In this document: positions 8,382 to 39,200 of the stretch, in pieces
Layout: each line of letters starts with the position of its first letter
Position numbering within the stretch: position 1 is the first letter of the stretch
Assembly: GCA_017983675.1 (NCBI GenBank)
Contig: JAGOAZ010000007.1
Span: 62,001 to 126,000 of the forward strand
Direction of reading: 5' to 3'
Origin: Fluviicola sp.
Lineage (GTDB): Bacteria; Bacteroidota; Bacteroidia; Flavobacteriales_D; Crocinitomicaceae
Length of the DNA stretch: 64,000 nucleotides
Made by a program: the position numbers and the translations under genes
Notes under the pieces: generated by a model
Seen by the model: the letters and a program-made list of their open reading frames with translations, nothing else
What the model was told of the DNA's origin: nothing
Databases searched by the model: none

Positions 8382-8394
8382 TAACAAAACTATC

Positions 8395-9297: not shown

Positions 9298-9299
9298 AT

Positions 9300-9713: not shown

Positions 9714-9730
9714 TTCAGGTCATAATTTTG

Positions 9731-9753
9731 TAGAGTGAATCGCTCTACCTTTG
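9731..9753 (+). promoter_or_regulatory. Promoter with overlapping palindrome before an outer-membrane protein gene
   Basis: A -7 box TACCTTTG (9746-9753, TAnnTTTG) follows TTG at 9728-9730 (15-nt spacer, slightly short). The spacer is occupied by the near-palindrome TAGAGTGAATCGCTCTA (9731-9747), 5-bp arms that would suit a repressor or activator site. The operator role is an inference. Confidence 0.5.
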
Positions 9754-9768
9754 TATAAAAACAATCTT

Positions 9769-20436: not shown

Positions 20437-21336
20437 TTATTTATCGAGAATTCGCCAGCGAATTTCATCACAGATTACTTTTATTTTGTGTAATCGAGAT
20501 TTACTTTCTAGTTCAAGTAGGTTCTGTGTGAATAGCGCAGGATTTAAAATGGTTTTTATCCATCTAAGTGGAAAAGGCAACGTTTGATAAGGGAATTTAG
20601 CGCGTTTGTATAATGGTTTTAATTCTGGCTGGATGCGTTCAAAAAATACCTTTTTATTATGAAAGTATAAGGGACTTTTTTTAAAGTTTAACACATCAAA
20701 ACCAATGTGAAAAGTTAAGTGTTCTTTTGTGTGAAAACTAGGGTTTTTAGCATGAGCAATTATATTGTGTATGAAACTTGTTTCGATAAATGGCATTCCA
20801 ATACAAATTTCATCAAAGTAAAATTTTGCCAGTAATGCTTTGTCAAACACGAAACAATCAAATCCTGGATGTGATTTTCCGACATCCGCATACATCGATG
20901 CTAAATTATTACTTTGAAAATGAGCTTTTGTTATTCTTCTGCGATTTATCACAAGTGCATCATGACCTTTATTGAGATAATTGACTACGAAATCATAAAA
21001 ATAGGGCATTAATGCAATATCAATGTTTGTGTAAATGAAGTAATCAACATCTTTCAAGTTTTTTAATTGATCAATGATATCGCCAATTAAAGGGAGTTTT
21101 CGATTGCTTAAATCTGGATGAATTGAACTAATTGATCGTTCTAAATCTGGTAACACAATAAATTCAGCAGGAATGATTTCGTGGTCTTCTGGATATTGTG
21201 TCGTATAGATAGTAATGTCAGCTCCTTTATGGTGTTTGATTGCTTCGTTTATACTCTGAAAAGTGATAGGTTGAACCAATGAAAGCTCATTATTTTTAGC
21301 TACTTTTACAGGGTTTATGATATGTGCAATTTTCAC
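20437..21336 (-). CDS. Glycosyltransferase-like protein, antisense in the cluster (GTG start)
   Basis: This 299-residue protein begins MKIAHIINPVKV and contains DVDYFIYTNIDIALMP, a DxD-like block seen in GT-A enzymes, followed by VINRRRITKAHF, HPGFDCFVFDKALL and FHIGFDVLNF. I recognise it as a glycosyltransferase-like conserved hypothetical, not a defined family. The start codon is GTG. It is the only minus-strand gene in a long plus-strand cluster and is squeezed between neighbours with 2 bp on each side. Confidence 0.65.
   Translation of the reverse strand: MKIAHIINPVKVAKNNELSLVQPITFQSINEAIKHHKGADITIYTTQYPEDHEIIPAEFIVLPDLERSISSIHPDLSNRKLPLIGDIIDQLKNLKDVDYFIYTNIDIALMPYFYDFVVNYLNKGHDALVINRRRITKAHFQSNNLASMYADVGKSHPGFDCFVFDKALLAKFYFDEICIGMPFIETSFIHNIIAHAKNPSFHTKEHLTFHIGFDVLNFKKSPLYFHNKKVFFERIQPELKPLYKRAKFPYQTLPFPLRWIKTILNPALFTQNLLELESKSRLHKIKVICDEIRWRILDK
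21301..21308 (+). promoter_or_regulatory. Possible -7 box for the aminotransferase operon (TACTTTTA)
   Basis: TACTTTTA is one base from TAnnTTTG and lies 30 nt before the ATG at 21339, inside the antisense glycosyltransferase gene. No well-spaced TTG is visible. It is listed because some promoter must lie in this gene. Confidence 0.25.
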
Positions 21337-21338
21337 GA

Positions 21339-22472
21339 ATGGAAAAAATTAAATTCAATAACAGCTGTAAATCTACTCATTTTAACGAATACATTGAGTT
21401 GTTGCAGTCTGATTATGATTTATTGCGCCAAAAACACTTTTCATCATTGTGTTTAGCGACATTATCACAGCACTATCAGTCAGCAAAATTGTTTTTAACA
21501 CATTCTGCAACAGGTGCTTTAGAAATGATTGCCGATTTAATGGAAATTAAACCCGGCGACGAGATAATTCTTCCATCATACACATTTGTATCATCAGCAA
21601 ATGCCTTTGTTTCAAGGGGAGCGACGCCAGTTTTCGTTGACATAGATGAATCAAGTATGTCGTTAACTCTTTCCTCGATTTCAGCAGCGATTTCTCCAAA
21701 CACAAAAGCCGTTTTACTTGTTCATTATTTTGGACATTCTACCAATGTTGCCGAAATCAAACAACTGTGTAAAGCCAATAATTTACTTTTTATTGAAGAT
21801 GCTGCTATGGGATATGGTTCATCTTTTGAATCGCAGCCTTTAGGCGTTTTTGGTGATTTCGGAGTTGTGAGTTTTGATGTAACAAAGCATATTTCAGCAA
21901 TTCAAGGAGGTTTATTGATCGTGAACAATGATTTTTATTCAAAACGCGCTACACATTTGTATCACAATGGCACTAATCGGGAGGAATTTCAAGATGGAAA
22001 CGTTCCGTATTATGAGTGGGTTGATATTGGCTCTAAATATCAAATGAATGAATTGAACGCCGCTTTTTTATGGAGCCAACTTCAAGTCCAAGACGAACTC
22101 TTCGCACATCGAAAAAAATGTTCTCTAAGTTATTACGAAGCATTGTTACCACTTCAAGAGGCTGGACATATTCAGTTAATGGAAAAGCAATTTGTTGCGA
22201 ACAACATTCATGGGTTTTACATTGTTTTGGCGACACATGCGCAACGAGAAGAATTAAGAACTTATTTGCTTTCAAATGGAATAGAGGCTTTGTTTCATTA
22301 TATACCCTTGCATTTGTCTAAAAAAGCAATAGAACTTACTGGTGCAATTCGTTTGTCAACAACAGAAAAAATAGCGGATACACTTTTGCGCTTACCTTTT
22401 CATGATTTAATTACAGCGAAAGAAATAAAGATTATTTCCTCATTCATTCATTCTTTTTTCAATGAAAAATAA
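21339..22472 (+). CDS. DegT/DnrJ/EryC1/StrS (WecE-like) sugar aminotransferase
   Basis: This PLP-dependent enzyme of about 377 residues should transaminate a nucleotide-linked 4-keto-6-deoxy sugar. Family blocks are SATGALEMIADL, GDEIILPSYTFVSSANAFV, GATPVFVDID, EDAAMGYGS, the PLP-lysine region SFDVTKHISAIQGG and the substrate-binding YHNGTNREEF...YQMNELNAAF. The sequence after the Lys differs from the usual GEGG. Best fit is WecE/RffA, making dTDP-Fuc4N-like sugars. The ATG at 21339 is 2 bp from the divergent GTG start. It overlaps the ABC permease by 11 bp. Confidence 0.9.
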   Translation: MEKIKFNNSCKSTHFNEYIELLQSDYDLLRQKHFSSLCLATLSQHYQSAKLFLTHSATGALEMIADLMEIKPGDEIILPSYTFVSSANAFVSRGATPVFVDIDESSMSLTLSSISAAISPNTKAVLLVHYFGHSTNVAEIKQLCKANNLLFIEDAAMGYGSSFESQPLGVFGDFGVVSFDVTKHISAIQGGLLIVNNDFYSKRATHLYHNGTNREEFQDGNVPYYEWVDIGSKYQMNELNAAFLWSQLQVQDELFAHRKKCSLSYYEALLPLQEAGHIQLMEKQFVANNIHGFYIVLATHAQREELRTYLLSNGIEALFHYIPLHLSKKAIELTGAIRLSTTEKIADTLLRLPFHDLITAKEIKIISSFIHSFFNEK

Positions 22473-23292
22473 GTCCTTATTTCAAACGAAGTATCAGCCA
22501 GAATCGGATAGTTTTGTGGTTTTTTTACAGAAAATAATCCAAAATTCTCATCTGATTTGGGTTTTTGCAAAAAGAGATATCAGTGTAAAATATGCACAAA
22601 CAAGTTTGGGCTATTTTTGGGCCCTGTTACAACCCCTTGTTGCGTTGGTTATTTACACCGTGTTTTTTGGGTTTGTATTAAATTGGGAATCAGACAATAT
22701 TCCTTTTCCAATATATGTCTTAACAGGACTTTTGGGCTGGAATTTATTTTCATACATAGTAAATGTTGGGACGTTGAGTTTTTTTGATGGCGGAAATTTG
22801 ATGAAGAAAATTTATTTCCCTAAAATCATTTTACCCTTTTCAAAAGTGATTATTGGATTAGTTGATTTGCTTATTGGATTATTACTTCTTATTCCACTTT
22901 TTATTTATTATGACCTATCCATTTCATGGAAAGTAATTGTCATTCCAGTTGTCATGTTATTAACTGCAATGTGTGGTTTGACATTGGTGTTTTGGTTAAC
23001 CATTTTTTCGTATAAAAAAAGAGATGTTTTGCATGTGATTCCATTCATAATAAATTATGGAATTTGGTTAACCCCTGTTTTCTTTAGTGCAACAATTTTA
23101 CCAGTTAAATTGCGCTTTATTTTAGATTTTAATCCGATGAATTCAATAATAAATTGTTGGCGTTGGACATTGTTTGATTCGGTACATTTTCAATTGAATT
23201 GGTTGTATTCTTTGGCAGGTATGATCGTGTTTTTTATTTTTGGATTATATTTTTTTAATAAAGCAGCGAACAAAATAGCAGATTACATATAA
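22462..23292 (+). CDS. ABC-2 type polysaccharide/lipid-glycan export permease (Wzm-like)
   Basis: This 276-residue protein has six predicted membrane helices and the family blocks FVFAKRDISVKYAQTSLGYFWALLQPL (read across about 31-57), LLGWNLFSY and FFDGGNLMKKIYFPKIILPFSK. It would export an undecaprenyl-linked O-antigen or another glycolipid. The partner ATPase (Wzt) is not next to it and not anywhere in this window, which is unusual because the two genes are normally adjacent. It overlaps the aminotransferase gene by 11 bp. Confidence 0.9.
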   Translation: MKNKSLFQTKYQPESDSFVVFLQKIIQNSHLIWVFAKRDISVKYAQTSLGYFWALLQPLVALVIYTVFFGFVLNWESDNIPFPIYVLTGLLGWNLFSYIVNVGTLSFFDGGNLMKKIYFPKIILPFSKVIIGLVDLLIGLLLLIPLFIYYDLSISWKVIVIPVVMLLTAMCGLTLVFWLTIFSYKKRDVLHVIPFIINYGIWLTPVFFSATILPVKLRFILDFNPMNSIINCWRWTLFDSVHFQLNWLYSLAGMIVFFIFGLYFFNKAANKIADYI

Positions 23293-23350: not shown

Positions 23351-25486
23351 ATGAGCATAAAAGATTTCGATTTTACCACGTGGGAATTTTCTCAAAATCC
23401 GTATCGGTTTTATGACGCTTTACGTCCTTTTGGGTCTGTTCATTTTCTACCAAAGAATAATACATATCTTGTAACAGGCTACCAAGAAATCGTGGCAATT
23501 TTAACAGACACCTCTGTTTTTTCATCAGGCGGGAACAATGTTTTTGATCCGATTTTATTGAATTGCGATCCGCCAGAACATGCAACAAACCGTAAAGTTT
23601 TTAATGGTAAAAACGCTCCTTTTTCACTTAATAGAGTCAACCAAATAGCACTAGAAAATAAAGCTATTTGTTCACGTTTATTTGATGGTTTGAGTAACAA
23701 TACTTCGTTTGATTTGTTGCGCGACTTGTCTTTGCCATTTTCATCATTGGTAATATTAAAAATTCTTGGAATTGAAACAACAGAATTGGATGAATTGCGC
23801 AATTGGTCAACAGATGCGGTGCTTACAAAAGCAATAGAGAACACGGATTATGCAACTGACATTTGGAATTTACTATTGCCGAAAGTTGAAAAATGGATTG
23901 ATCAAACGTTATCCTCACCGCACAAAACAGGATTGGCAGAAATTGTTTTTTTTGAAGGTGGCAGAACTTTTGATCGTCAGGAGATCATTAATTTTACCCG
24001 AGTACTATTATTGGGTGGAAATGAAACGACACCGAATTTAATTGCTTCAGCTTTCCTCAAGTTGGTAGAACATCCAGAAGTTTTTGATGCAGTTAAAAAC
24101 GATCATTCATTGATTGCTGCTGTTGTAAATGAAACATTGCGTTTAGAATCGCCAACACAATTAATCAAACGGATTACAACTGAAGATACAATAATTGCGG
24201 GGGTTCAAATACCTGCTCATTCATCGGTTACATTAGCCCTAGGAGCTGCAAACCGTGATCCAGAAGTTTTCGAAAATCCAACTGAATTTAATATTTTTCG
24301 TCCAGCTGGTAAAATAGTTTCCTTTGGATTTGGACCTCATTATTGTTTAGGTGCTCATTTATCTAAGCAAGAAGCAGCAATTGTTTTGTCTGAATTGATT
24401 TCACGTTATCCAGAAGTTACTTTACCAGCTAACTTTCAACCAGTTTATCGTCATTCCAGCCATATTCGAGGAATTACATCAATGCCACTACTTTTGAAAC
24501 CTTTTCAAACTGAAAAGTTGTCGTTGTACAAAAAAATTGCCCGAAAAGAGATTTCAACCAAACTGGAAGAATATGGTCATTTTCCGACATTTGAGAATTA
24601 TCCTGCGCTAGATTCAAAACGATGGATTTACACATATCCATCACCGTTTATTCATGCAAATGTTTGTGCATCATTATTAAAAGCGGGGGAATTTAATGAT
24701 CACTATTTAAATCAAGCAAAATCATTCTTAATTCAAACGAAAGAAACAGGTGATTTGTGGCGATTTTGGGATTTGAAGCAGGCACAAAACAACGTTCCGA
24801 TTGACATGGATGATACTGCGATCTGCTCGTATGTTTTGAATAAATTCGGTGTGACGCTTGCGAATAAGAAAATCATATTTTCACTTGTAAAACAGGATGG
24901 ACGTTTGTTAACTTGGTTGTTTCCGTCTTTACGATTAGCAATTTTAAATTTTCGGGTCTTTTTAAAATCAATTTTAACTTATAGTGCAATAAAACCAACA
25001 TTGAAGTCAGGAATGTTGGCAAAAAACGACACCGATATTTCAGTCATGGCAACTGTTTGCTTTTACCTGGGTAATACTGAAATAGCTTCTAAAATTGCAA
25101 AATATTGTGTTAAGAATTGGCAGCAAGAACAACTTGCAGGTCAATTTTATGACAATCAATTAATAGATGCCTTTCATGTTGCGCGCGCTTTTTCAGAGGG
25201 TGTTATTGAGTTTGAAGCGTTAAAAACTCAAATAAACGATTTGATTGCAACTAACTATAAACAGTATGATTTTATTTCTTTACTGTTAGCTGCTATTATT
25301 TCTGTTGATTTCGACCTGTCTTTTGATTTACAGTGCTCCATCAAGCGACTAATATTAGAACACGATTCCGTTGAAGAATCTATTGTTCAACATTATCCAT
25401 ATTTCACATCTAAGGATCGGAATTTTTATGCAGGATCTTCTGCTTTAACTGCTGCTTGGTTTTTGTTAGCAACAAAAGATTGGTAA
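23351..25486 (+). CDS. Cytochrome P450 fused to a C-terminal terpene-cyclase-like domain
   Basis: This 711-residue protein has two parts. Residues 1 to about 390 are a complete cytochrome P450: I-helix GGNETTPN, ExxR in NETLRLESP and the heme loop FGFGPHYCLGAHL (Cys about 332). No membrane anchor is present, so it is a soluble bacterial P450 needing external redox partners. Residues from about 395 to 711 form an all-helical domain with LWRFWD followed by DMDDTA (485-490), the acid motif (DxDD) of class II terpene cyclases, and a C-terminal GSSALTAAWFLLA. It may be an alpha/alpha-barrel prenyl-cyclase (TS-beta) domain; length is too short for a full gamma-beta cyclase. UbiA follows after 2 bp. 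The P450 call is firm; the cyclase-like call is tentative. Confidence 0.85.
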   Translation: MSIKDFDFTTWEFSQNPYRFYDALRPFGSVHFLPKNNTYLVTGYQEIVAILTDTSVFSSGGNNVFDPILLNCDPPEHATNRKVFNGKNAPFSLNRVNQIALENKAICSRLFDGLSNNTSFDLLRDLSLPFSSLVILKILGIETTELDELRNWSTDAVLTKAIENTDYATDIWNLLLPKVEKWIDQTLSSPHKTGLAEIVFFEGGRTFDRQEIINFTRVLLLGGNETTPNLIASAFLKLVEHPEVFDAVKNDHSLIAAVVNETLRLESPTQLIKRITTEDTIIAGVQIPAHSSVTLALGAANRDPEVFENPTEFNIFRPAGKIVSFGFGPHYCLGAHLSKQEAAIVLSELISRYPEVTLPANFQPVYRHSSHIRGITSMPLLLKPFQTEKLSLYKKIARKEISTKLEEYGHFPTFENYPALDSKRWIYTYPSPFIHANVCASLLKAGEFNDHYLNQAKSFLIQTKETGDLWRFWDLKQAQNNVPIDMDDTAICSYVLNKFGVTLANKKIIFSLVKQDGRLLTWLFPSLRLAILNFRVFLKSILTYSAIKPTLKSGMLAKNDTDISVMATVCFYLGNTEIASKIAKYCVKNWQQEQLAGQFYDNQLIDAFHVARAFSEGVIEFEALKTQINDLIATNYKQYDFISLLLAAIISVDFDLSFDLQCSIKRLILEHDSVEESIVQHYPYFTSKDRNFYAGSSALTAAWFLLATKDW

Positions 25487-25488
25487 TT

Positions 25489-26502
25489 ATGAATATGCAG
25501 CATTGGTTTTTACGCTTTCGTTCTTTTTCGCGCTATAACTTACTGTTGTATGCACATTTTTGTTTGGTCATTTGTGCGCTTTTTAAGTTATCCGTTCCTT
25601 TTTCTAAAATTTTAATGCTGTTTGGTGCTTATTTGTTAATAGGTGTTGGCGGGTATTTATTGAATGATTGGTATGATCAAACAAGTGATAAAAAAGCAGG
25701 TAAATTAAACATAACAGCTTCCTTATCTTCCAATCAATTTTATTTACTAGTAGTGCTGTTTTGGGGTTTTGGTCTTTTTCTTATTTTTCAAATAAGTTTC
25801 GTTGCTTCTTTTGTTTTGATCATTCAATTTTTATTGTTAATTGCTTATTCGTACCCAAAGATTCGTTTGAAAGAAAAGGGTGTTGTTGGCTTATTGGTTG
25901 ACGCACTGTACGGTCATGTCGTACCAGTTTTATTGTTATTAGTCGTACTTTCAGATTTTGGTCACATACCGCTATTCTTTCAATTAAGTTTTATCGTTTT
26001 GAATTTGTTTATTGGTTTTAGAGATATATTAATTCATCAACTCGAAGATAAACAAAATGACCTAAAAGCAGGAGTTACAACATTTGCAACAGAACAAGGC
26101 GATAAGGCGCGAGAACTAATAAAACAAGTTGTTTTAGTTACAAATTATCTCGTGCTATTTTTGGTTTATTACGTTTTGTATATCCAATTTAATGTATATT
26201 CCCTCATATTCACCAGTCTGTTAACAGCAATTTTCATTCAACAATACAAAAAAAGAAAACAACTAGAACGCGTTTCTGTTTTTCTAAGCACATGGTTGCT
26301 TATTGGTTATTTTGTTAAAAATGAACAATTCGTTTTCTTATTGCTTGTTTTTCACCCCTATTTTATTGAGTTAACAAAACGATATTTAAAAACCATTTAT
26401 TTTGATTTTTTCAAATTGTACGTCAATGTTGGCTTGTATTATCTGTTTTTAGTTTTTGGTCGTGATTTGAAGAAAAAACCTTTGTATGAGAAGCAAAAAT
26501 AA
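25489..26502 (+). CDS. UbiA family prenyltransferase
   Basis: This polytopic protein of about 337 residues carries the two Asp-rich motifs of UbiA enzymes: NDWYDQTSD (residues 59-67) and, near residue 180, DILIHQLEDKQNDLKAG followed by TTFATEQG. UbiA enzymes transfer prenyl groups from prenyl diphosphates to aromatic or sugar acceptors, and some cyclise terpenes. The start at 25489 lies 2 bp after the P450 fusion stop. The acceptor is unknown; UbiA proteins making menaquinone or heme O have different flanking sequence and different neighbours. Confidence 0.88.
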   Translation: MNMQHWFLRFRSFSRYNLLLYAHFCLVICALFKLSVPFSKILMLFGAYLLIGVGGYLLNDWYDQTSDKKAGKLNITASLSSNQFYLLVVLFWGFGLFLIFQISFVASFVLIIQFLLLIAYSYPKIRLKEKGVVGLLVDALYGHVVPVLLLLVVLSDFGHIPLFFQLSFIVLNLFIGFRDILIHQLEDKQNDLKAGVTTFATEQGDKARELIKQVVLVTNYLVLFLVYYVLYIQFNVYSLIFTSLLTAIFIQQYKKRKQLERVSVFLSTWLLIGYFVKNEQFVFLLLVFHPYFIELTKRYLKTIYFDFFKLYVNVGLYYLFLVFGRDLKKKPLYEKQK

Positions 26503-26605: not shown

Positions 26606-28390
26606 ATGTGTGGAATTGTAGGATGGGTAACAAATAATAAACAAGTCGATAAAGTTGTCTTTAATGAAATGCTTGCAACATTAAATCACAGAGGGCCAGA
26701 TGATGGAGACGTGTTTTATTCGAATCAGAACAAAATTGCTTTTGGTCATCGGCGACTTTCATTTTTAGATTTATCAGATGCTGGGCGTCAGCCGTTTCAT
26801 TCAAGTGATGGTTCCGTAACGATTACATTTAATGGCGAAATATATAATTATTTAGAATTAAAAGAACAACTCAACGACCATTATTCTTTTCAAACGAATA
26901 CCGATACGGAAGTAATTGCCGCCGCTTATCTTTACTGGGGAATTTCGTTTATTGACCATTTAAAAGGCATGTTTGCGATTGGTCTTCATGATCGAAAATT
27001 GAACAAACTTTTTCTTATTCGTGATCGATTTGGTATCAAACCTTTGTATTATTTAAACACAGAAACTGATATTGTTTTTGCGTCGGAACTCAAAGCGATT
27101 ATTCAGTCGGGGATTTCAAAAAAAGAAATGGATGTTACGTCATTCATCGACTATTTTGTTTACAGATATATTCCTTCTCCAAAAACAATTTGGAGCGATA
27201 TTAAAAAAGTTCCACCCGCACATTATGTTTCTTTTTGCTTAGCGACATTTCAAACTGAACTAACAGAATATTGGACCCTAAAGTCTGGAGATTTAACATG
27301 GAATGCAACAGAAATCAGCAAACAAACAAACCATTTGTTGATTGAATCAGTTAAAGAGCATACGCGTTCAGATGTCGCAATTGGCGCTTTTCTAAGTGGT
27401 GGCTATGACAGTAGTGCACTTGTCGCACAGTTAAAAGAAAACGGAGAATCACCAGAAACATTTTCAATCGGATTCAAAAATTGGTCAAACAGTGAGGATC
27501 AATTTGCAACAATCGTTTCAGAACATTTATCTGTAAAAAACTCGGCAATAATAGCAGACGAGTCTGATCTTTCTTTGCTTTCTCTTATGCCAACAGTTTA
27601 CGACGAACCCATCGCAGATATTTCGATTATCCCCACTTTTATGGTAAGTAAACTTGCGCGATCGAAGGTGAAAGCGGTATTGAGTGGGGAAGGAGCAGAT
27701 GAAATTTTTGCTGGATATACCTGGCAAAAAGAGTTTTATGAATTGTCCTACCCAACTACCTTTTTGGGTCGATTAAAAAAAATTGCTCGGCCACCTATAG
27801 ATACGGTTTCGTTTTATGCGCAAGCAATGGCAATGGGACGTTTTGATCAAGATGAACTGCGAAAAATGTTACACCCGTCATTGCATCAATTTATTCCTGC
27901 AGATGAGAATTGGTTCTACAGGAAACATTTCAAAAAAGAGTTGTCGCCATTAAAAGCAATTCAATATTTAGACATGAAATGTTTTATGGGGGAATTGGTA
28001 CTCACAAAAGTAGATAGAGCAAGTATGGCTAATTCATTAGAAGTGCGCGTTCCTTTTTTAGATCATACGCTGTTTGAGTCCGTTTTTGTATTGAAAGAAC
28101 AAGCATATTTTTCGCGAACTCAAACAAAAAAACTCTTATATGAACATATAAAACACAAATTGCCAGCGCTCATCTTACAACGTAAAAAACAAGGTTTTGT
28201 TGGTCCAGATGCTTATTACATGAAGCTTGAATTTTACCGAAAACAATTTGCGAAAAGTAATTTGGTGGCACACAATATTGTTAATCGAGAATACATTGAT
28301 GATTTGTTAAAAGAGCAGTATTCTTGGAAATTATGGAAGCTGTTAGTAATGGAAAATTGGTTCACAAATTGGGTTGTGACTACACATTAA
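26606..28390 (+). CDS. asnB: Asparagine synthase (glutamine-hydrolysing), AsnB-type
   Basis: This 594-residue two-domain enzyme has the N-terminal glutaminase with Cys2 (MCGIVGW) and NHRGPDDGD, and the C-terminal synthetase with the PPi loop LSGGYDSSAL and LSGEGADEIFAGY. All catalytic elements look intact. Inside glycan clusters, AsnB homologues often amidate sugar uronic acids or peptides rather than making free asparagine, and its position between UbiA and an epimerase favours such a role here. That is an inference. A 103-bp gap precedes it, without a recognisable -7 box. Confidence 0.9.
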   Translation: MCGIVGWVTNNKQVDKVVFNEMLATLNHRGPDDGDVFYSNQNKIAFGHRRLSFLDLSDAGRQPFHSSDGSVTITFNGEIYNYLELKEQLNDHYSFQTNTDTEVIAAAYLYWGISFIDHLKGMFAIGLHDRKLNKLFLIRDRFGIKPLYYLNTETDIVFASELKAIIQSGISKKEMDVTSFIDYFVYRYIPSPKTIWSDIKKVPPAHYVSFCLATFQTELTEYWTLKSGDLTWNATEISKQTNHLLIESVKEHTRSDVAIGAFLSGGYDSSALVAQLKENGESPETFSIGFKNWSNSEDQFATIVSEHLSVKNSAIIADESDLSLLSLMPTVYDEPIADISIIPTFMVSKLARSKVKAVLSGEGADEIFAGYTWQKEFYELSYPTTFLGRLKKIARPPIDTVSFYAQAMAMGRFDQDELRKMLHPSLHQFIPADENWFYRKHFKKELSPLKAIQYLDMKCFMGELVLTKVDRASMANSLEVRVPFLDHTLFESVFVLKEQAYFSRTQTKKLLYEHIKHKLPALILQRKKQGFVGPDAYYMKLEFYRKQFAKSNLVAHNIVNREYIDDLLKEQYSWKLWKLLVMENWFTNWVVTTH

Positions 28391-28431: not shown

Positions 28432-29370
28432 ATGAGTAAGATTTTAATTACTGGAGGAGCTGGATTTATAGGTTTTCATTTGCAGCAACAATTGATAAGC
28501 AAACACGAAGTGAAATGCATCGACAGTTTGCGTTGCGAAAAAACAGCATCCATTCATCGCGCTTCTTTGATGCCGTCAGTTTATCAATTAGACTGTTCAG
28601 ATGATTTTTCATCCACATTAGCTTTTCAACCAGACATCATCATTCATTTAGCAGCTGAAACAGGAGTTTCCGATTCAGAAATATTTCCTGAAAAATACAT
28701 AAAAACGAATGTCGACGCTACATTTAATGTGTTGGAGCAAGCACGTAAAATGGGAGTAAAGCATTTTATTTATGCAAGTAGTTCCTCTGTATATGAGCCT
28801 AATCAAGCAATCATGTCAGAATCATCTCCAACAGAATTTCAGTTGTCTTTTTATGGGACAACCAAAAAAATGATGGAGCAAATGGTCTCAAATTATTGCA
28901 GACAATTTGGAATGACTGCCATTGGTCTTCGTTTTTTTACCGTATATGGATCGTATACACGACCAGATATGGCGGGATATAAGTTTCTGAAGGGAATCCA
29001 AGACGGATCTCCGATAAAACAATACAATCATGGCGAAGTTTTACGCGATTTTACGCATGTAAGTGATGTTGTTCATTCAATTGAGCTATTACTTACGAAA
29101 ATCACCAGTGAACCTCTTGGTTTTCATCGTGTATTTAATATTGGTAATAGTTCACCAGTAACCGTAAAAAAATACATTCAACTAATTGCACAGGAACTGA
29201 ATAAGGAACCTGTGATCAATGATTTTCCATTACCAAAAAATGAATTACAAGCAACATTTAGTGATTCAACAAGCTTGGAACTTTATACGGGCTATAAACC
29301 TTCGGTTTCAATTGAAGTTGGCGTGAAAGAAATGGTAGATTGGTTTAAAACTGGTGCATATGAAGAATAA
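28432..29370 (+). CDS. NAD-dependent epimerase/dehydratase (nucleotide-sugar, extended SDR)
   Basis: This 312-residue extended short-chain dehydrogenase has the NAD-binding GGAGFIGFHL, HLAAETGVSDS, YASSSSVYEPNQ and the catalytic YxxxK in SFYGTTKKMMEQ. The pattern fits UDP-glucose 4-epimerase or UDP-glucuronate/galacturonate epimerases. It supplies a nucleotide sugar for the cluster. It overlaps the next gene by 11 bp. Confidence 0.9.
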   Translation: MSKILITGGAGFIGFHLQQQLISKHEVKCIDSLRCEKTASIHRASLMPSVYQLDCSDDFSSTLAFQPDIIIHLAAETGVSDSEIFPEKYIKTNVDATFNVLEQARKMGVKHFIYASSSSVYEPNQAIMSESSPTEFQLSFYGTTKKMMEQMVSNYCRQFGMTAIGLRFFTVYGSYTRPDMAGYKFLKGIQDGSPIKQYNHGEVLRDFTHVSDVVHSIELLLTKITSEPLGFHRVFNIGNSSPVTVKKYIQLIAQELNKEPVINDFPLPKNELQATFSDSTSLELYTGYKPSVSIEVGVKEMVDWFKTGAYEE

Positions 29371-30553
29371 TTGTTTTGTGTATGTTGTTTGTGGAGACAA
29401 AGAACATATTGACACGCTTCATTTTTCCTTACGTTATTTGAAGCACTTTTCTTCAAATAAAATTATTGTTTTAACGGATTCATCACGTAATGAAATACCA
29501 GTAGTTCACGATACTATCATTGATGTCAAAACGCCCGAAAAGTATAACAATCACCAAGCGAGCATCTATTTGAAAACGGGCGTTAATCAATTCTTACCAA
29601 AAGGAACCAATTACTGTTATTTAGACACAGATGTTTTAGCTTTATCTGCAGATTGCGACGCGGTATTTGAAGAATTTATTTCACCAATTCGTTTTGCAGC
29701 TGATCATTGTACGATGGAAAAATTTAGCGCTTATGCAGTTAATTGTGATTGTTTGACGGATTGGAAAAAAGATTGGGATGCATATCACTCCTCATTTTCG
29801 AATCACGATAAAAATAAATCGATAACAGATCAAGGTTTATTGAACCATAGCAGACGATTAAAAGCGAGTTTTGAACAGATTAAAACAAACAAAAGAACCC
29901 GTATTTTTAAAGCACTTCGCTATATCCTGAGTTGGCCGATTTTTAAATACAGTGATGATTATTTTTTCAATAAAAAAGATCGTACTTGGCAACTCAAAAC
30001 AGGAGAGGTCATATTATACGAAACACCTTACAAGCAAATAGCTGCTGAAACAGGTTTGAAATACAGTTGGTTGAGACAAAGGTGGCAAAAATCAACTGGT
30101 GAAGATTTGTGGAAATCATCGTGCAATCACCTAGCGCAAGCAATTGAAACGGACTTTCAAATTGATGTAAAAGATACAAATTGGCAACATTGGAATGGCG
30201 GATTATTTCTGTTTAATGATTCCAGTGAACAGTTTCTTTCAACTTGGCATACTTTAACGTTAACTGCATTCGATTTGCCTAATTGGAAAACGAGAGATCA
30301 AGGGACATTAATTGCGACTGTATGGAAACTGGGGCTTGAAAATCAACCAGTATTAACTAAAAAGTGGAATTTTCTTGCAGATGCGAATAACGAACACATG
30401 ACTTTTGAAGGAAAAGGAAAGTTTAATGATGGTTCATCAATTCGATCATTTGATGTTGCATTGATACATATCTATCATCGATTTGGAGATGTAACATGGG
30501 ATTTGTGGAATCATATTCAGCATGATTATTTAAAGGTAGATAATGAAAAATAG
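29360..30553 (+). CDS. Putative glycosyltransferase (GT8-like)
   Basis: This protein of about 397 residues begins with VYVVCGDKEHIDTLHFSLRYL and holds the metal-binding YLDTDVLAL, WNGGLFLFND and a DQGTL block, a combination seen in GT-A enzymes of the GT8/GT-like type. A middle insert (about 180-270) rich in Lys and Trp is not recognised. The ATG at 29360 overlaps the end of the epimerase gene; a GTG 6 nt upstream is an alternative. It overlaps the next gene by 11 bp. Donor and acceptor unknown. Confidence 0.7.
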   Translation: MKNNCFVYVVCGDKEHIDTLHFSLRYLKHFSSNKIIVLTDSSRNEIPVVHDTIIDVKTPEKYNNHQASIYLKTGVNQFLPKGTNYCYLDTDVLALSADCDAVFEEFISPIRFAADHCTMEKFSAYAVNCDCLTDWKKDWDAYHSSFSNHDKNKSITDQGLLNHSRRLKASFEQIKTNKRTRIFKALRYILSWPIFKYSDDYFFNKKDRTWQLKTGEVILYETPYKQIAAETGLKYSWLRQRWQKSTGEDLWKSSCNHLAQAIETDFQIDVKDTNWQHWNGGLFLFNDSSEQFLSTWHTLTLTAFDLPNWKTRDQGTLIATVWKLGLENQPVLTKKWNFLADANNEHMTFEGKGKFNDGSSIRSFDVALIHIYHRFGDVTWDLWNHIQHDYLKVDNEK

Positions 30554-30998
30554 CTTGCAACGATATTATCATTTTTTAGTAGCTAAAAAAAGATTTTTTG
30601 GCTTAGGACTTATCTATTTGATTTGTAGTTTAATAATTGGTGAGTTTCATCCGTTTTCACGTTTTCCGATGTATAATTCATTTCCAAATTGGTCGTATGT
30701 GTTTTATTACACAGATAAGGAAGGTCAATTAATTCCAGCAAAACAATTGCAAACAAATACGGGACATTTAGCTCACATGTTTTACACAGCTTGTGGAACA
30801 TTACAGATTGAATATGGAAATGGAATAGAAACGCAACAAGAATTAAAACGATTGGGTCTTGAAATAACCAAGCAAGTGGGGCAACTTATTCAATTGCCGA
30901 AACCTAGAAAAGTGAAATTACACCGGGTTTACTTTTATAAAGTAGCCACTGAAATGAGAAAAAAAGATGTCATTATTTATGAAGGATTTATACAGTAA
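30543..30998 (+). CDS. Small membrane-anchored protein preceding an HTTM-like gene
   Basis: This 151-residue protein has one hydrophobic segment (about 17-36: FFGLGLIYLICSLIIGEF) followed by HPFSRFPMYNSFPNWSYVFYYTD and a mixed C-terminal domain (about 55-151). I do not recognise a named domain. It overlaps the previous gene by 11 bp and the following membrane gene by 32 bp, so the two membrane proteins are probably translated together and act together. Confidence 0.65.
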   Translation: MKNSLQRYYHFLVAKKRFFGLGLIYLICSLIIGEFHPFSRFPMYNSFPNWSYVFYYTDKEGQLIPAKQLQTNTGHLAHMFYTACGTLQIEYGNGIETQQELKRLGLEITKQVGQLIQLPKPRKVKLHRVYFYKVATEMRKKDVIIYEGFIQ

Positions 30999-31845
30999 TC
31001 AAGTTTCATTTTCGCAAAATAACAACGAGTGGCTTGGTTTTAAAGTGCCTTTTGTTATTTTCTTTTTTATGTTAGCTTTTGATATTTTAAGCGCATACTC
31101 GTCCGTTAATTTTCCAGTTGCATTTTGTGCGTTAGGACTTTGCGAATGGGTTTCGGTTTTTTCAATCAAGCTTTTCATTGTTTTTTTATTATTGCTTTTT
31201 TCAGCAGCATATATTTTTGAATACAAAATGAAAGTGACGTTGGGATTTCTTTCCATTTTCAGTATCCTGCTTTTTTCTATTGAAGAATCGAATGGGATAA
31301 TGAACAGAGCGAGTTTAATGTCTATGGTTTTTGTCGCACAATGGATAGCCTATTTTTTGTACGAAAACCAAACGAATAATTTAATGAAATTCAGGTTACA
31401 GTTTGGTATTCAATTAGTGGTTGCGACGTATATGCTTTCGGCTATTTCAAAACTAGCGACATCAGGATTTTCATGGATAAGTGATAGTCAATATGCCGTA
31501 CTTCAGATCCAGAAATCAATTTATTATAATTTTTTTGATTCAAATAACACCTCCTTCATCAAAGAGGGTGCTCATTTTGTTCAATTTATGAATCAGCACA
31601 GCACATTCTTTAGTTTGTTGTTTTTAAGTGCATTAGTCATTGAATTCACTGTTTTTGTTGCTTTGTTTAATTCGAAAATGCGCATTCTTTATGGGTTTTT
31701 ATTATTAGCAATGCACATAGGGATTTTCATTGTTATGGATATAATCATTATACATGTTTTCATTCCGATGTTTTTATTGTTACTTAATCCTTTTTATTAC
31801 TTAACAATTTTACTTCAAGGAACATTTAAACGATTGAAAAGATGA
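30967..31845 (+). CDS. Polytopic membrane protein, HTTM-like
   Basis: This 292-residue protein has about seven hydrophobic helices. The blocks NRASLMSMVFVAQWIAYFLYE and YMLSAISKLATSGFSWISD resemble the HTTM (vitamin K gamma-carboxylase-related) membrane family, which in bacteria often has a paired small protein. The match is by eye and moderate. An alternative start is the ATG at 30979. It overlaps the next gene by 4 bp (ATGA). Confidence 0.6.
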   Translation: MSLFMKDLYSNQVSFSQNNNEWLGFKVPFVIFFFMLAFDILSAYSSVNFPVAFCALGLCEWVSVFSIKLFIVFLLLLFSAAYIFEYKMKVTLGFLSIFSILLFSIEESNGIMNRASLMSMVFVAQWIAYFLYENQTNNLMKFRLQFGIQLVVATYMLSAISKLATSGFSWISDSQYAVLQIQKSIYYNFFDSNNTSFIKEGAHFVQFMNQHSTFFSLLFLSALVIEFTVFVALFNSKMRILYGFLLLAMHIGIFIVMDIIIIHVFIPMFLLLLNPFYYLTILLQGTFKRLKR

Positions 31846-32741
31846 GTCATTTTGCAACGATAACAACACAGTCTCATTTTTTTAAAGTTTTTGCTTTAGC
31901 AGAAAGTCTAAAAAACTTTGCGATAACGCTTCATGTCTTGGTTGTTGATGGAGATACATTCCCACAAGAATACCCCTCGAATATTGAGTTTTATAAATTG
32001 ACTGACATTCCCAACCCATTAGTGAGCCAATTGGGAAAAAAATACAAAGGTGATCGCTTGCGTTGGTCATTAAAACCTGTTTTTTTAATCAATTTATTAG
32101 CAAAGCACGAACGGGTTGTCTATGTTGACAATGATATTTTCTTTTATTCCAACCCTCAATTTATCGTGAATTATCTGGAGAAACATTCTCTGGTTTTGAC
32201 CCCGCATTTTTATCGTGATTCGCCATTTGAAGAACAGAATTGGTTAGAAGCAAATTTCAGAGTCGGATTATTTAATGCTGGCTTTATAGGCGCAAATAGA
32301 CATGCAGTTACATTTTTAACTTGGTGGGCTAATTGTTGTTTGTTTTCAGTGAAAAAAGCTTATTGGAGAGGTTTGTTTGACGATCAGAAATACTTGGATT
32401 TGGCACCTGTTAAAGTACCTGATTTGAAAATTTTACATCACCGAGGGTGTAATTTAGCTGGTTGGAATGATGTGGATTTACGATTTGAAAAGAAAGACGA
32501 GTTAGTTTATATCAATGGGGTAGATCAATTGGTGTTTATTCATTTTGCTGAATTAACCATGAAACAATTCAGTCAAAAAAATCATTTCCTGAATAAACAA
32601 TTCGAAGAATATATATCAAAACTACAAAAGTTTAAAGAAGCCTATACGTTTAAAACACGTATATTGACATGGACAAAGGTTAAAGATTTTTGTTATTTCT
32701 TAATTTGGAGAATGATTGTAACCAGAAAAGTTATAAAATGA
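31842..32741 (+). CDS. Putative glycosyltransferase (GT8-like)
   Basis: This 299-residue protein shows a GT-A pattern: RVVYVDNDIFFYSNP (DxD), LFNAGFIGANR, FDDQKYLDLAP and HHRGCNLAGWN. It resembles family 8-type or capsular sugar transferases whose sugar donors are nucleotide-linked. The first residues (MSHFATITTQSHFFKVFALAESL) are typical of such proteins. It is coupled by 4-bp ATGA overlaps on both sides, to the HTTM-like gene and to the dioxygenase gene. Substrate unknown. Confidence 0.75.
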   Translation: MSHFATITTQSHFFKVFALAESLKNFAITLHVLVVDGDTFPQEYPSNIEFYKLTDIPNPLVSQLGKKYKGDRLRWSLKPVFLINLLAKHERVVYVDNDIFFYSNPQFIVNYLEKHSLVLTPHFYRDSPFEEQNWLEANFRVGLFNAGFIGANRHAVTFLTWWANCCLFSVKKAYWRGLFDDQKYLDLAPVKVPDLKILHHRGCNLAGWNDVDLRFEKKDELVYINGVDQLVFIHFAELTMKQFSQKNHFLNKQFEEYISKLQKFKEAYTFKTRILTWTKVKDFCYFLIWRMIVTRKVIK

Positions 32742-33598
32742 AAATAAAAGATATTATATCAGCTAAAGCATTTGAAAAAGATGGTTTTTTCGTGATCGAA
32801 GATTTTTTTGATGTAAATACGATCAATGAAATTCAAGAATTTTATGATTCATTTAATTTTGATACGAATCCTGAATTAAATACAAATATAAAATCATGTA
32901 CTAAAAATGAAAACATCCAGATTAGTGATTATTTAAAGTCAAAATATGAATTGGAAATCGATAAATATTTTGATGAAGTTCAATTAGGTGGTGGCGTTTT
33001 TATTATGAAAGGTAGTGGTGAGAAGAGCATCTCTTCTTTGCATCAAGATTTCAATGTAGTGGATGAGCAAAAATATAAATCAATTACTATTTGGTGTCCT
33101 TTGATTGATGTTGATGAACAAAATGGTTGCATGCAATTTGTCAAAGGAAGTCATCAATGGTTTAATTCAATTCGTTCTTTCAATATGCCAACTTGTTTTT
33201 TAGATTTTCATTTAGTTAGCGAATATTTAGTTTCTGTTTCATTAAAAAAAGGGTCTGTTGTGGTATTTAATCATAGTGTTTTCCATGGTTCAAAACCTAA
33301 TTACAGTCAAAACTTTAGACCAGCTGCAGCTTTTAGTTTATTATCAAAAGATGCTACTCCACTTCATTATTGGAGAGATAATAAACAGATCAATGTTTAT
33401 CAAATAGATGAAGATTTTTACAATGAAAAAGCGCAACAATTATTTTCTGGTAAATCTTCAGAATCGTTGCAATTGATTGATTCATTTCCCTTCAAAGAAG
33501 AATATATCATTACTGAAAAAAAGGTGGCTGATTTTTTAAGTAATAAAAAAAGTGTTTTTCAAAGAATAAAAACAATTTTTAACCATAAAATCAAATAA
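32738..33598 (+). CDS. Phytanoyl-CoA dioxygenase (PhyH) family protein
   Basis: This Fe(II)/2-oxoglutarate-dependent oxygenase of about 286 residues has the facial triad His102-x-Asp104 (SLHQDF) and His183 (VFHGS), with the 2-oxoglutarate-binding Arg194 (FRPAAAFSL). PhyH relatives hydroxylate small molecules, lipids or sugars in natural-product and glycan pathways. The start at 32738 overlaps the previous stop as ATGA; an in-frame start 48 nt upstream was rejected for that reason. The following gene starts 1 base after the stop. The substrate may be a sugar or prenyl intermediate of this cluster, but this is not shown. Confidence 0.85.
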   Translation: MKIKDIISAKAFEKDGFFVIEDFFDVNTINEIQEFYDSFNFDTNPELNTNIKSCTKNENIQISDYLKSKYELEIDKYFDEVQLGGGVFIMKGSGEKSISSLHQDFNVVDEQKYKSITIWCPLIDVDEQNGCMQFVKGSHQWFNSIRSFNMPTCFLDFHLVSEYLVSVSLKKGSVVVFNHSVFHGSKPNYSQNFRPAAAFSLLSKDATPLHYWRDNKQINVYQIDEDFYNEKAQQLFSGKSSESLQLIDSFPFKEEYIITEKKVADFLSNKKSVFQRIKTIFNHKIK

Positions 33599-33599
33599 A

Positions 33600-36131
33600 T
33601 TGGAAACGATCTCTTTAAAAAAACACTTTTTGTTTTTAGCATTATTGGTCATGTTGGTGTTCGGTAATACATTATCAAATGATTACAACATGGATGATAA
33701 TTTGGTGACGCAACATCACCGATTAACATCAAAGGAAAGTGATAGTTCATTACTCTCTATTTTTACGGAACCATATTACAAAGACGACATGGGATATTCC
33801 TATGGATATCGACCATTAGTTACATTGTCATTTGCAATAGAACATCAATTATTTGATGAATCGGCAAAAGTTAGTCACTTTTTTAATCTGTTAATTTATG
33901 CTGGCGTCGTATTGTTATTATTTCGTTTTCTAGTAAGTTATTTTGGTTCAGATCGACTTCAATTGTTCTTTTTCACAGCAGTATTGTTTGCCGTTCATCC
34001 AATTCATACAGAAGTTGTCGCAAGCATTAAAAACAGGGATGAATTATTGGCTTTATTGTTCTCTTTATTAGGCGCATTAGCAGGATTAAAATTTATAAAA
34101 AGAACGAGTTTCCTTCAATTAGCATACAGTGTCATCTTTTTTTCATTAGCGATATTATCGAAGAAAAGTATTTTCCCCTTGATTTTTATTTTACCGATTA
34201 TTCTCGTTTTTATTCAGCAAGAGAAAATCAAACTGATCTTAATTTTTCAATTAATTGTTGCCTTGCCCTTAGTCGTTTTCGCATCCGATTTTGATCCATT
34301 GAAGGGAGCGAAACTTTATCTCTTAGTAGTTGTTTTTAGTGGACTACTATTACTAGCTAAAGCTATTTTTAAGCAGCAGGAAAAGCTTATGAAGAGCACG
34401 CATTTATTGACTATTGTCACGGTTTCTTTTTCTATTCTCTTTTTCGCTTTATTTCTGTATTATCATCAATATCTATTGTTGGTGTTTTCGGTGATTGTTT
34501 CACTTTTTGTCGTAAAAAAATCACTGTTTCTAGTAATATCGCAAAATGTCATTCAACTTGTTATTACTTCTTTCATTTATGATATTCCAGAGTTGAAAGA
34601 AGTGACTATTTTCCTTTCAATAGGTTATCTAGTCTATTTGATTAGCCAAAAAAACTGGAAACTCATCAAGTGGTTTTCACCTGTTTTAGGATGTGCCATT
34701 TTACCGATAATTTTTGATTTTAATTGGAATTTAGTACTTGTATTGATTACATCGATATTGTTTTTCATTTTAGTTTTCAAAAAATGGCTAATCGGTATGT
34801 TGTATGTTTTGTTTTCGAGTAGTATAGCTTTTTTCGCATTCAAATTAGGACTCATTCATTTCTTGTTAGCTGGTTTTACCTTGATTTATTTTGTGGAGCT
34901 TCAAGTAAAATTGAAACGTATTAAAGTGTTTGTTCTTTCTTTCTCAGTGATTGCAATTTTGGGATTAGTTCGTTTGGATACATCTTATTTTTATGATTTT
35001 TTTGTTCAAATAGATTCATCCCAAGTGGCACTTTCAATCAAATCGAGTGATCGTAATCAATTGGAGGAAACACGTCAGATAAATATGAAAGAAGGACGTC
35101 GTTTAGGTTACATAGAAAATACTTTAGTTGCACCGCATAATCAATCGCAAACGATTGCAACAGGTATTTATACGCTCGGAAAATATGGTCAGTTATTAAT
35201 TTTTCCTTTGAAACAATCTAGTTACTATGGGTTTTCAAGTGTTCAAACAATGGACTTTCATTCGATTTGGGTATGGTTATCATTTTTGTTTTACATCGGC
35301 TTAATGATTGTTGCAATCTATTTTTTCAATAAAGATAAAATAATCACGATTGGTATTTTTTGGTTTTTGCTGAGTATACTGTTATTTAGTAATTGGACTG
35401 AATTAGTTGCTGGTATGGTTGCAGAACGATTAGCCTTCACTGCATCTGTTGGTTTTATTTTAGCCATTGCAGCAGTTGTTTATTATTTTCATCCAACGTT
35501 AAATCTCTTAAAACCCAAAAAGAAAGACATTCTGATACATTTAATTTTGTTTGCTCTTGTTGTTATTACAATGAAACGAAATGGCGTATGGAAAGATGCA
35601 GTTACATTGTTTTCAAACGATTTAAAGGCAGAACCTCAATCAGCACAATTAAACAATTTGTATGCATTATCTTTGATGAAAGATGTGACAGAAAATAGCT
35701 TATTGACAAGTGAAGAAAAAAAGGAGTATAATTTAAAAGCAATTCATCATTTTGAAAATGCATGTAGCATTTATCCATACTCATTTAATTTTTATTTTGA
35801 CCTTGGTAGAAGCTGTGTTTTAGCTCAAAATTTCAAAAAAGCATTCATTTCATTTGAAAAAGCATACCAAATTGTCCCTAAAAACATTTTAGTTTTAGAA
35901 GAACTTGTGAAAACAGCATTTGATTTAAAAATGAAAAATGAAACTGTTTATTATGGAAGAAAATATTTATCTATTTCCCCTAATAATGTTCAGATACACG
36001 AATTGGTCGCTTATATATGCCTATTAAACAAGGATTTAGAGTTGACGCGTTATTTTGCAAAAAATGCATTGAAGTTATTTCCAACAAATCAAAATTTCAA
36101 ACAAATGTTGATAGATACAGCAGAGAAGTAG
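33600..36131 (+). CDS. TMTC-like multi-span membrane protein with C-terminal TPRs (putative O-glycosyltransferase)
   Basis: This 843-residue protein has about a dozen hydrophobic helices and C-terminal tetratricopeptide-like helices (about 670-835: FNFYFDLGRSCVLAQNFKKAFISFEKA). Early blocks match the GT-C/TMTC pattern: NDYNMDDNLV, YRPLVTLSFAIEHQLF and AVHPIHTEVVASIKNRDELLALL. TMTC and related proteins use polyprenyl-phosphate sugars to O-mannosylate proteins; here it might glycosylate exported proteins. The start is a TTG one base after the PhyH stop; no ATG lies near. It is the last gene of the cluster, just before the giant adhesin gene. Confidence 0.78.
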   Translation: METISLKKHFLFLALLVMLVFGNTLSNDYNMDDNLVTQHHRLTSKESDSSLLSIFTEPYYKDDMGYSYGYRPLVTLSFAIEHQLFDESAKVSHFFNLLIYAGVVLLLFRFLVSYFGSDRLQLFFFTAVLFAVHPIHTEVVASIKNRDELLALLFSLLGALAGLKFIKRTSFLQLAYSVIFFSLAILSKKSIFPLIFILPIILVFIQQEKIKLILIFQLIVALPLVVFASDFDPLKGAKLYLLVVVFSGLLLLAKAIFKQQEKLMKSTHLLTIVTVSFSILFFALFLYYHQYLLLVFSVIVSLFVVKKSLFLVISQNVIQLVITSFIYDIPELKEVTIFLSIGYLVYLISQKNWKLIKWFSPVLGCAILPIIFDFNWNLVLVLITSILFFILVFKKWLIGMLYVLFSSSIAFFAFKLGLIHFLLAGFTLIYFVELQVKLKRIKVFVLSFSVIAILGLVRLDTSYFYDFFVQIDSSQVALSIKSSDRNQLEETRQINMKEGRRLGYIENTLVAPHNQSQTIATGIYTLGKYGQLLIFPLKQSSYYGFSSVQTMDFHSIWVWLSFLFYIGLMIVAIYFFNKDKIITIGIFWFLLSILLFSNWTELVAGMVAERLAFTASVGFILAIAAVVYYFHPTLNLLKPKKKDILIHLILFALVVITMKRNGVWKDAVTLFSNDLKAEPQSAQLNNLYALSLMKDVTENSLLTSEEKKEYNLKAIHHFENACSIYPYSFNFYFDLGRSCVLAQNFKKAFISFEKAYQIVPKNILVLEELVKTAFDLKMKNETVYYGRKYLSISPNNVQIHELVAYICLLNKDLELTRYFAKNALKLFPTNQNFKQMLIDTAEK

Positions 36132-36255: not shown

Positions 36256-39200
36256 ATGTACGACAATTCATTCACCAAAAGTGATTTGAACAAATTAGGT
36301 GTCTTAAAAATGAGGATGACAACATTGCTTGTATTCCTTTTTCTCCTTTTTTCGTTTACACAAAACAGTTATTCTCAATGTAATATTGGGTCAACTAATT
36401 CACCCTTGTCTACTCCAAATTCATGTACTACTTATTACAGGGATTTAGGTGCAGGTCAATACGAACAAATAAGTTTAACACAAGGTGTAACTTATTCGTT
36501 TAATTTGAATTCAGCTTATTTGCCGGGTTATAATTGGGCTCCATGGACAGTTTATTGGGGTGGAGGAGTTTGTATTAATGGAACTTCAAACGGAAATTCA
36601 GTAGTTTATACTGCACCTGTAACGGGTAATTATAACATTGGAACAAATAGAATTACGAATGGCGATGGGAGATATTATTTCAATGGTCAATCAGCAACTC
36701 TGTCATACCGACCTTTAGAGCCTAATCAACCAGGAGGTATTTCTGGTGTTACAACTGTTTGTAGTGGTTCAACTGCGACCTATTCTATTGGGGGAGCGAC
36801 ATATGCGAAAGATTATGTTTGGGAATATTCAACAAATAATGGTATTACTTTCCAACCTTATATCACAGGATCTACTTCAATAAATTTCACCTGGCCATCC
36901 GTAGGAAATGCTGATGGATACATACGTGTGAAATCTCAAAACGGACCATGTAGCAGTGCATGGACATATTTGTATGTTCGTATTTTGGAACAGCCAACAG
37001 CTCCTACAACCACAACTAAATCCCCGAATAATAACCAAGTTTGTATTAACCAACAAGTTAGTATTAGTGCAGCTACGGGAGGGGTGAACCAAGGTTGTAC
37101 AATTGAATACCGACATACTATTGATGGCGGAAACACTTGGTCAGCTCCATATACATCGGTGCCTACAGGTTTGAGTTCTTCAGTCGCTGGAAATAATAGG
37201 ATACAAATTCAAGCACGAAGAAATAGTTGTTCAACGAGCGGTTGTAACACCACTTCTTGGAACACAATAGCAATGTGGCATGTGGATATTACACCGCCAA
37301 CTGTTTTGGTTCACAATGTTATTGTGAATTTAAATGCAGCTGGAACATATACGCTTTTACCTTCTGTAGTTGATAATGGAACAACAGATAATTGTACCAT
37401 TTCTTCGATGACCGTATCACCAAGTTTATTCAACTGTTCAAATGTTGGACCAAATAACGTGGTTTTAACGGTAACGGATAATGCAGGAAATATTTCAACT
37501 GGAAATGCAGTAGTAACAGTTAAAGATGTTACTCCTCCAAATATTTCTGTTCAGAATATTTTCTTAGCATTAGATATGAATGGTTTGGGTACCATTACTC
37601 CTGCAATGATCAATAATGGAACAACAGATGCTTGTGGAATTGACACCATGTATTTGAGTCAATACAATTTTGATTGTTCTCATGTTGGAAGTAACACTGT
37701 TACATTAACTGTTACTGATGTCAATGGAAATACCAGCACAAGTACGGCAACTGTTTTAGTTCAAGATTTAATTAATCCAGTCGTAGTGACACAAGATATT
37801 ACAGTTCACTTAAATGCAAACGGTGTTGCAAACATTACACCGCCAATGATTGATGGTGGATCAAGTGATAACTGTAGTTACACATTGTTCACGATACCTA
37901 GTACATTTAATTGTGCGAACGTAGGTGAAAATACTATTTTAGTATTAGCAGTCGATCCAGGAAATAATGTCGTATTTAATTCAGCTATTGTTACAGTAAT
38001 AGATTCGATTAAACCAACAATAACTGCTCCTGCTAACAAAACAGTAAATGCCAATGGTTCATGTGTTGCAACGGGTGTTCAATTAGGAACTCCAATTACA
38101 GCAGATAATTGTTCCATTGCAACAGTTACTAATAATGCACCTTCTGCGTTCCCATTAGGAACAACAACAGTAACATGGACAGTAACAGATGTGAATGGTA
38201 ATACGCGAACTGCAACACAAACAGTAACGGTTGTTGATAATACTGATCCAACTGTCTCATTACCACCATTAGTTACTGTAAACGCTGATGCAAATTGTGG
38301 TGCGTTAAATTCAGCTATTAATTTTGGTTTAATTACAAATGACAACTGTACGATTGCATCGGTTGTTAATAACGGACCAACTACTTTCCCTCTTGGGTAT
38401 TCCTCAATCATTTGGACGATTACTGATAACAGTGGTAATTCAATTCAAGCGAATCAATCTGTAAGAGTAGTTGATAATACGCCGCCAACAATTACAACAC
38501 CACCAACGGTTACTGTAAATGCAAATGCGTCATGTACTGCAACCAATGTGATTTTAGGAACACCTGTTACAGCTGATAACTGTCAAGTTGTAACAGTAAT
38601 CAATAATGCTCCAACAAGTTATTCAGTTGGAACAACACCTGTAACTTGGACAGTCATTGATGCTGCTGGAAATGTCACAACTGCAATTCAAAATGTTGTT
38701 GTAAATGATGTTACTGCGCCAATTATTTCATGTCCAGCTGCGGTTATTACTAAAAACAATACTCCTGGAGTTTGTGGTTATATTGTTCAAGGAACTGAAT
38801 TTAATCCAACTGCAGCTGATAATTGTAATCAAGCAACAATTACTCATAATTATTCTTCATGGACTTCTAATACAAGTCTAGCTGGGGCAACACTTCCAGT
38901 TGGAACGACTGTTATTACTTGGACCGCAACTGATAGTGCTGGAAACACATCAACGTGTACCGAAACAATTACGGTTGTAGATAATCAAGCGCCTACAATG
39001 GTGAATTGTGCTTCTGGGTTAACATTGACAATTGGTCAATATTCGTGTGGATCTAATCCGAATTGGGAGGCTCCACAAGCGACAGATAACTGTGGTGTTG
39101 TTTCCTTAACTCAAACAAGCGGACCATCATCAACGGCTTTATTAGCAGTTGGTTCTTATACGGTTGTTTATACAGCATTGGATGCTGCAGGAAATGCGGC

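Follow-up and report, generated by a model that had tools for sequence, protein, structure and literature searches.

One protein in the window (the whole 64,000-nucleotide stretch analysed here) joins a cytochrome P450 to a domain of class II terpene-cyclase type, and this architecture was confirmed to be real. It is encoded by a single 711-aa frame without an internal stop (positions 23351-25486, + strand), lying well inside a contig of 139,793 bases. Sequence comparison suggests to us, with a probability of roughly 0.7, that the two parts form one bifunctional enzyme, in which a P450 and a protonation-initiated class II cyclase would act on a prenyl chain that serves the adjoining UbiA prenyltransferase as substrate or leaves it as product, in a pathway that also includes an O-antigen-type ABC exporter and enzymes of sugar modification. 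The fusion and its partner gene comprise:

23351-24520, + strand: cytochrome P450 domain (residues 1-390), with I-helix GGNETT, ExxR (ETLR) and heme Cys332
24521-25486, + strand: class II terpene-cyclase-type (TS/TC-beta) domain (residues 391-711), in the same frame as the P450, with PIDMDDTA at residues 483-490, Y600, D560 and G695-S696
24803-24820, + strand: DMDDTA motif (residues 485-490), whose D485 and D487 align with the catalytic D331 and D333 of the drimenol synthase AsDMS
25489-26502, + strand: UbiA prenyltransferase (PF01040, E=2.1e-16, 60.4 bits against a cut-off of 34.2), with NDWYDQTSD and HQLEDKQND intact

The initial annotation had described a complete P450 in residues 1-390, with an ExxR motif and a heme cysteine near residue 332, running on in frame into a domain with LWRFWD and then DMDDTA at residues 485-490, and this description held throughout. 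The Pfam p450 model matched residues 146-353 (E=2.7e-28; 99.4 bits against a curated cut-off of 22.8), Cys332 lies within FGFGPHYCLG, ExxR within NETLR, and the acid/Thr motif of the I-helix is GGNETT. LWRFWD occupies residues 469-474, and DMDDTA sits precisely at the predicted place. This P450 is the only one in its genome.

The proposal that the protein is an analogous fusion of a cyclase domain with an oxidase was borne out at the sequence level, with the catalytic set conserved and the P450 fusion shared across bacterial families, and the suggested search for further P450 fusions was productive. A class-wide search recovered two more, L081:8086-10236 (716 aa) and L082:8237-10390 (717 aa), both from another family than the window genome, with 41% identity in each case to the entire length of the window protein. 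The three fusions form one clade (support 100/100), all of them retain the heme Cys, ExxR and I-helix motifs, and each has a membrane prenyltransferase gene as a neighbour. At six other loci (L043, L044, L083, L085, L086 and L087) the P450 and the cyclase are separate adjacent genes, mostly overlapping, as at L044, where the P450 spans 8102-9307 and the cyclase 9285-10355. Further, in genomes G000, G705, G1071, G910, G801, G993 and G164 every P450 found sits in this cluster. Judged from these sequences, the fusion is real and old. Members of the wider cyclase family occur at 20 or more loci, distributed over Bacteroidota relatives, Novosphingobium and Nostoc. At L036:11593-13839, within a cyclase/UbiA/sulfotransferase cluster, a P450 takes part in another unusual fusion, here with an acyltransferase domain (PF00698, E=2e-22).

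Residues 391-711 alone matched no Pfam model, NCBIfam model or PDB sequence, and phmmer searches of the PDB with the window domain alone or with the L044 domain yielded nothing useful, so that profiles built from relatives were required. We searched 395 genomes of the phylum with the C-terminal domain and found stand-alone relatives of 319-381 aa. Pairwise identity between the window domain and non-fused relatives is only 16-31%, and two scans of genome contigs with the window protein gave no match because the relatives are too divergent. The best PDB match of the relatives' profiles was AsDMS at every profile size: with 5 sequences (E=4.6e-15, followed by squalene-hopene cyclase), with 10 (9.1e-15, followed by squalene-hopene-type cyclases and AstC) and with 21 (E=2e-16). 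The Pfam model SQHop_cyclase_C matched 5 of the 21 relatives and NCBIfam squalene cyclases matched 6, while the window domain itself had no Pfam SQHop match. In hhalign comparisons, the Prob value was 92 against a squalene-cyclase-like set, and at most 0.2 for UbiA, P450, GT4 and ABC control profiles. A single-sequence AlphaFold2 model had a pLDDT of only 41, and the fold of the domain is accordingly assigned from sequence homology. Weak matches to a pectic lyase, a complement TED domain and a proteasome subunit were dismissed as generic alpha/alpha or helical-repeat similarity. The C-terminal part is one 321-aa domain and not a two-domain beta-gamma protein of about 630 aa, as would be expected of a squalene-hopene cyclase.

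The assignment of residues 391-711 as a divergent class II (TS/TC-beta) cyclase domain is thus supported by these profiles together with the conserved Asp/Asp/Tyr set described below, as had been anticipated from the motif, and its nearest solved relative is the TCbeta domain of a HAD-TCbeta drimenol synthase. One piece of background in the initial annotation needs correction. Bacterial drimenyl diphosphate synthases had been taken as HAD phosphatases fused to a lone TS-beta domain; HAD-TSbeta fusions are bifunctional drimenol synthases, and the bacterial drimenyl diphosphate synthases SsDMS and ScDMS are beta-gamma class II enzymes (PMC13244436).

In AsDMS, D331, D333 and Y427 are each essential, as shown by mutagenesis (PMC12365925). 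We checked the register by counting residues along the AsDMS alignment of the 5-sequence profile against the published structure (PMC12365925), and F281, F318, Y319, F328, D331, D333, R378, R380, R425, Y426 and Y427 were all in register. The three essential residues correspond to D485, D487 and Y600 of the window protein. All 21 relatives keep D487 and Y600; at the D485 position, 16 have Asp, 3 have Glu and 2 have Cys. The DMDDTA is more than a chance match, since none of the 21 homologous domains departs from the general-acid D487 and the three fusions have P-x-D-x-D-D-T in common, which answers the question raised earlier of whether the motif is conserved in homologues. The same Asp/Asp/Tyr protonation network occurs in fungal HAD-like cyclases, where it was compared with SsDMS and MstE (PMC13244436).

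The headgroup site is less similar. AsDMS grips the diphosphate of FPP by Y373, R378, R380, R425 and Y426, among others, and the corresponding window residues are W522, K558, D560, Q598 and F599. The Arg380 position is an invariant Asp in all 21 relatives, R378 is R/K in 9 of 21 and K, I or P in the three fusions, R425 is not conserved, and the diphosphate-binding Y426 position is always aromatic. Furthermore, the fusion protein has no HAD phosphatase domain, its N-terminal domain being the P450. Given the replacement of diphosphate-binding residues, we infer that the domain would recognise a headgroup different from that of AsDMS, with an already prenylated acceptor favoured over a free diphosphate, and its chemistry may differ as well.

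The UbiA gene starts with an ATG at 25489, 2 nt past the fusion stop. The alignment columns of the Asp-rich motifs NDxxDxxxD and HQxxDxxxD (N75, D79, D83, D216 and D220) are kept in all 16 cluster UbiAs. A UbiA gene lies within the cluster at 17 of 22 cyclase loci; at those lacking one (L038, L039, L085, L088 and L092) a contig ends no more than about 3 kb from the cyclase gene, and every locus with several kb flanking the cyclase gene on both sides has it. The window genome has only 4 UbiA genes in 2.85 Mb, from which we estimate a chance of roughly 2% per locus of finding one within about 8 kb. On plasmid pC052_D of Nostoc sp. C052 (L046:8027-11683), PhyH, UbiA, cyclase and TPR domains follow one another in a single 1218-aa protein, annotated in its record as a TPR protein. 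The partnership of the wider cyclase family with UbiA is obligate-looking. The initial annotation had mentioned neither UbiA nor the glycan-export cluster described next; in view of both, the fusion more likely acts on a prenyl group that UbiA handles too than on a free prenyl diphosphate.

The genes surrounding the fusion and UbiA are:

21324-22472, + strand: DegT/WecE-type sugar aminotransferase, with a counterpart at the same place in L082 (50% identity)
22462-23292, + strand: ABC-2 membrane protein (Wzm-like exporter subunit; PF01061, E=3.3e-12), directly upstream of the fusion
26606-28390, + strand: asparagine-synthase-like amidotransferase (AsnB-like), conserved cluster gene, 57-59% identical to L044, L081 and L082
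28432-29370, + strand: NAD-dependent epimerase, conserved cluster gene
29354-30553, + strand: probable glycosyltransferase, conserved cluster gene, no Pfam match
31842-32741, + strand: probable glycosyltransferase, conserved cluster gene, no Pfam match
32690-33598, + strand: PhyH-type 2-oxoglutarate/Fe(II) oxygenase (PF05721, E=1.6e-21)
33600-36131, + strand: GT-C-like membrane protein, conserved cluster gene, with weak PMT_2 and C-terminal TPR similarity

The window and L082 share one gene order at 33-59% identity, namely aminotransferase, ABC-2 permease, fusion, UbiA, AsnB-like amidotransferase, epimerase, two probable glycosyltransferases, PhyH and the PMT-like membrane protein. Homology also links the PhyH-type oxygenase to the PhyH domain at the N-terminus of the Nostoc fusion protein (31% over 206 aa). 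All cyclase loci sit among ABC exporter, glycosyltransferase and tailoring genes, and loci other than that of the window also carry sulfotransferases, a conserved GT4 and SDR genes. The exporter ATPase is absent beside the window permease; a full-length homologue on another contig of the same genome (L099:7041-8375) is likely to be its partner. The conservation of the fusion and UbiA within a cluster for building and exporting surface sugar chains points to an undescribed terpenoid pathway, and this context suggests that a glycosylated or glycan-linked terpenoid is exported by the ABC transporter.

Some further features of the region were noted. Two neighbouring membrane-protein genes without a Pfam match, HTTM-like by eye, interrupt the conserved gene order at 30543-31845. 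Directly after the cluster, 36256-45576 encodes a 3106-aa protein with many near-identical repeats and a gliding-motility/T9SS-type C-terminus. On the other contig, L099:5305-8375 holds the exporter ATPase, a hypothetical protein and a probable glycosyltransferase, resembling cluster genes of L044, L081 and L082, as if the cluster were split.

For the fusion we propose the following course of reaction, with its acceptor and product. Ring closure in the cyclase domain would begin when D487, which Y600 holds and D485 assists, protonates a linear prenyl chain at its terminal double bond, and the P450 domain would then oxidise the cyclised chain or its precursor. The chain would be the substrate or product of the adjoining UbiA, most likely already attached to its acceptor, as in monodomain merosterolic acid synthase (MstE), and the product would form part of the conserved pathway with sugar-modifying enzymes and the O-antigen-type exporter. 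A more specific version, which we hold only tentatively, is that of a terpenoid-decorated surface glycan: UbiA would prenylate a sugar or glycan carrier, the fusion would make oxidised rings, PhyH, the amidotransferase and a sulfotransferase would tailor them, and the Wzm/Wzt-like ABC system would export the result.

Lone class II cyclase domains are already known from fusions with HAD phosphatases and from the single-domain MstE. The HAD-TCbeta drimenol synthases (AsDMS, and fungal AstC and AncC) resemble the window protein in having a single TC-beta domain with another enzyme domain N-terminal to it, in profile homology and in the Asp/Asp/Tyr protonation set. They differ in their partner (HAD phosphatase rather than P450) and motif (DxDTT rather than DxDDT), whereas the window protein is without most of the diphosphate-binding arginines and is linked to UbiA and glycan-export genes. 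MstE, a monodomain class II cyclase, uses a prenylated aromatic acid as its substrate; like the window domain it is a lone beta-domain cyclase for which a UbiA-type prenylation partner is plausible, but the window protein also carries a P450. MstE gave no sequence match in the window-domain searches, and it is the structure to which the TCbeta of AsDMS is reported to be most similar in fold (PMC12365925). Squalene-hopene and other beta-gamma class II cyclases share DxDDTA with the window protein, and the C-terminal domain of squalene-hopene cyclase is weakly similar to the relatives; the window protein, however, has a single domain and no gamma domain. P450 and terpene synthase activities also reside on one polypeptide in CYP170A1 (albaflavenone monooxygenase/terpene synthase, NCBIfam NF051859). 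There, a class I-type synthase site lies inside the P450 fold, whereas a separate class II-type domain is appended in the window protein, which scored 38 bits against the NF051859 cut-off of 700.

That the two genes stand as separate neighbours at six other loci might suggest that their union here stems from misassembly, from a frame error or from a meaningless chance joining. This was refuted by L081 and L082, since two independent genomes of another family carry the same fusion with its motifs kept, and we regard the idea as practically dismissed. A catalytically dead P450 helping the cluster glycosyltransferases is also very improbable. P450-derived glycosyltransferase activators of the DesVIII type are known, and the fusion, in its glycosyltransferase-rich cluster, does match NCBIfam TIGR04515 (E=2.8e-33), but at 115.9 bits against a cut-off of 343 and with heme Cys, ExxR and I-helix motifs intact, on which grounds we rejected this reading.

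The other two alternatives concern the cyclase domain. Its barrel might have been kept and recruited to recognise or modify glycans or lipids in a surface-polysaccharide pathway, with no terpene ring made. The gene neighbourhood (glycosyltransferase, exporter and sulfotransferase genes at all loci) and a headgroup site unlike that of AsDMS would fit; nevertheless, we think this unlikely, as the full protonation set is retained and the domain has a prenyl-handling UbiA with it wherever the locus is adequately covered, in Nostoc even within the same protein. A variant in the order of steps is a more serious, though still doubtful, contender: the domain would cyclise free FPP or GGPP, as its nearest solved relative AsDMS does with FPP, after which UbiA would transfer the cyclised diphosphate and the P450 would oxidise it. 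The constant aromatic residue at the Y426 position and the basic residue at R378 in some relatives agree with such a site, but the invariant Asp at R380, the poor conservation of R425, the K/I/P at R378 in the fusions and the missing HAD phosphatase domain speak against it, and UbiA adjacency is compatible with either order.

The open-access papers that were searched describe neither a P450-class II cyclase fusion nor a link between UbiA, this cyclase and O-antigen-type export. Such a fusion would unite cyclisation and oxidation, the two scaffold-making steps of terpenoid synthesis, on a single polypeptide, and biocatalysis could take it up as a ready-made component. The placement of the cyclase family within surface-glycan export clusters predicts terpenoid-glycan chemistry, and a terpenoid-decorated glycan, if true, would mean that bacteria make a class of polysaccharide, terpenoid-capped or terpenoid-anchored, that is not yet described.

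Finally, the searches also returned a distinct group of distant cyclase relatives of 470-530 aa with a signal-like N-terminus (L040:8586-10061, L041:31-1530, L042:7933-9363, L093:8784-10364 and L094:1732-3147). A DADDTS motif was seen in those of L040 and L042, and at L042 a UbiA-like gene directly follows.
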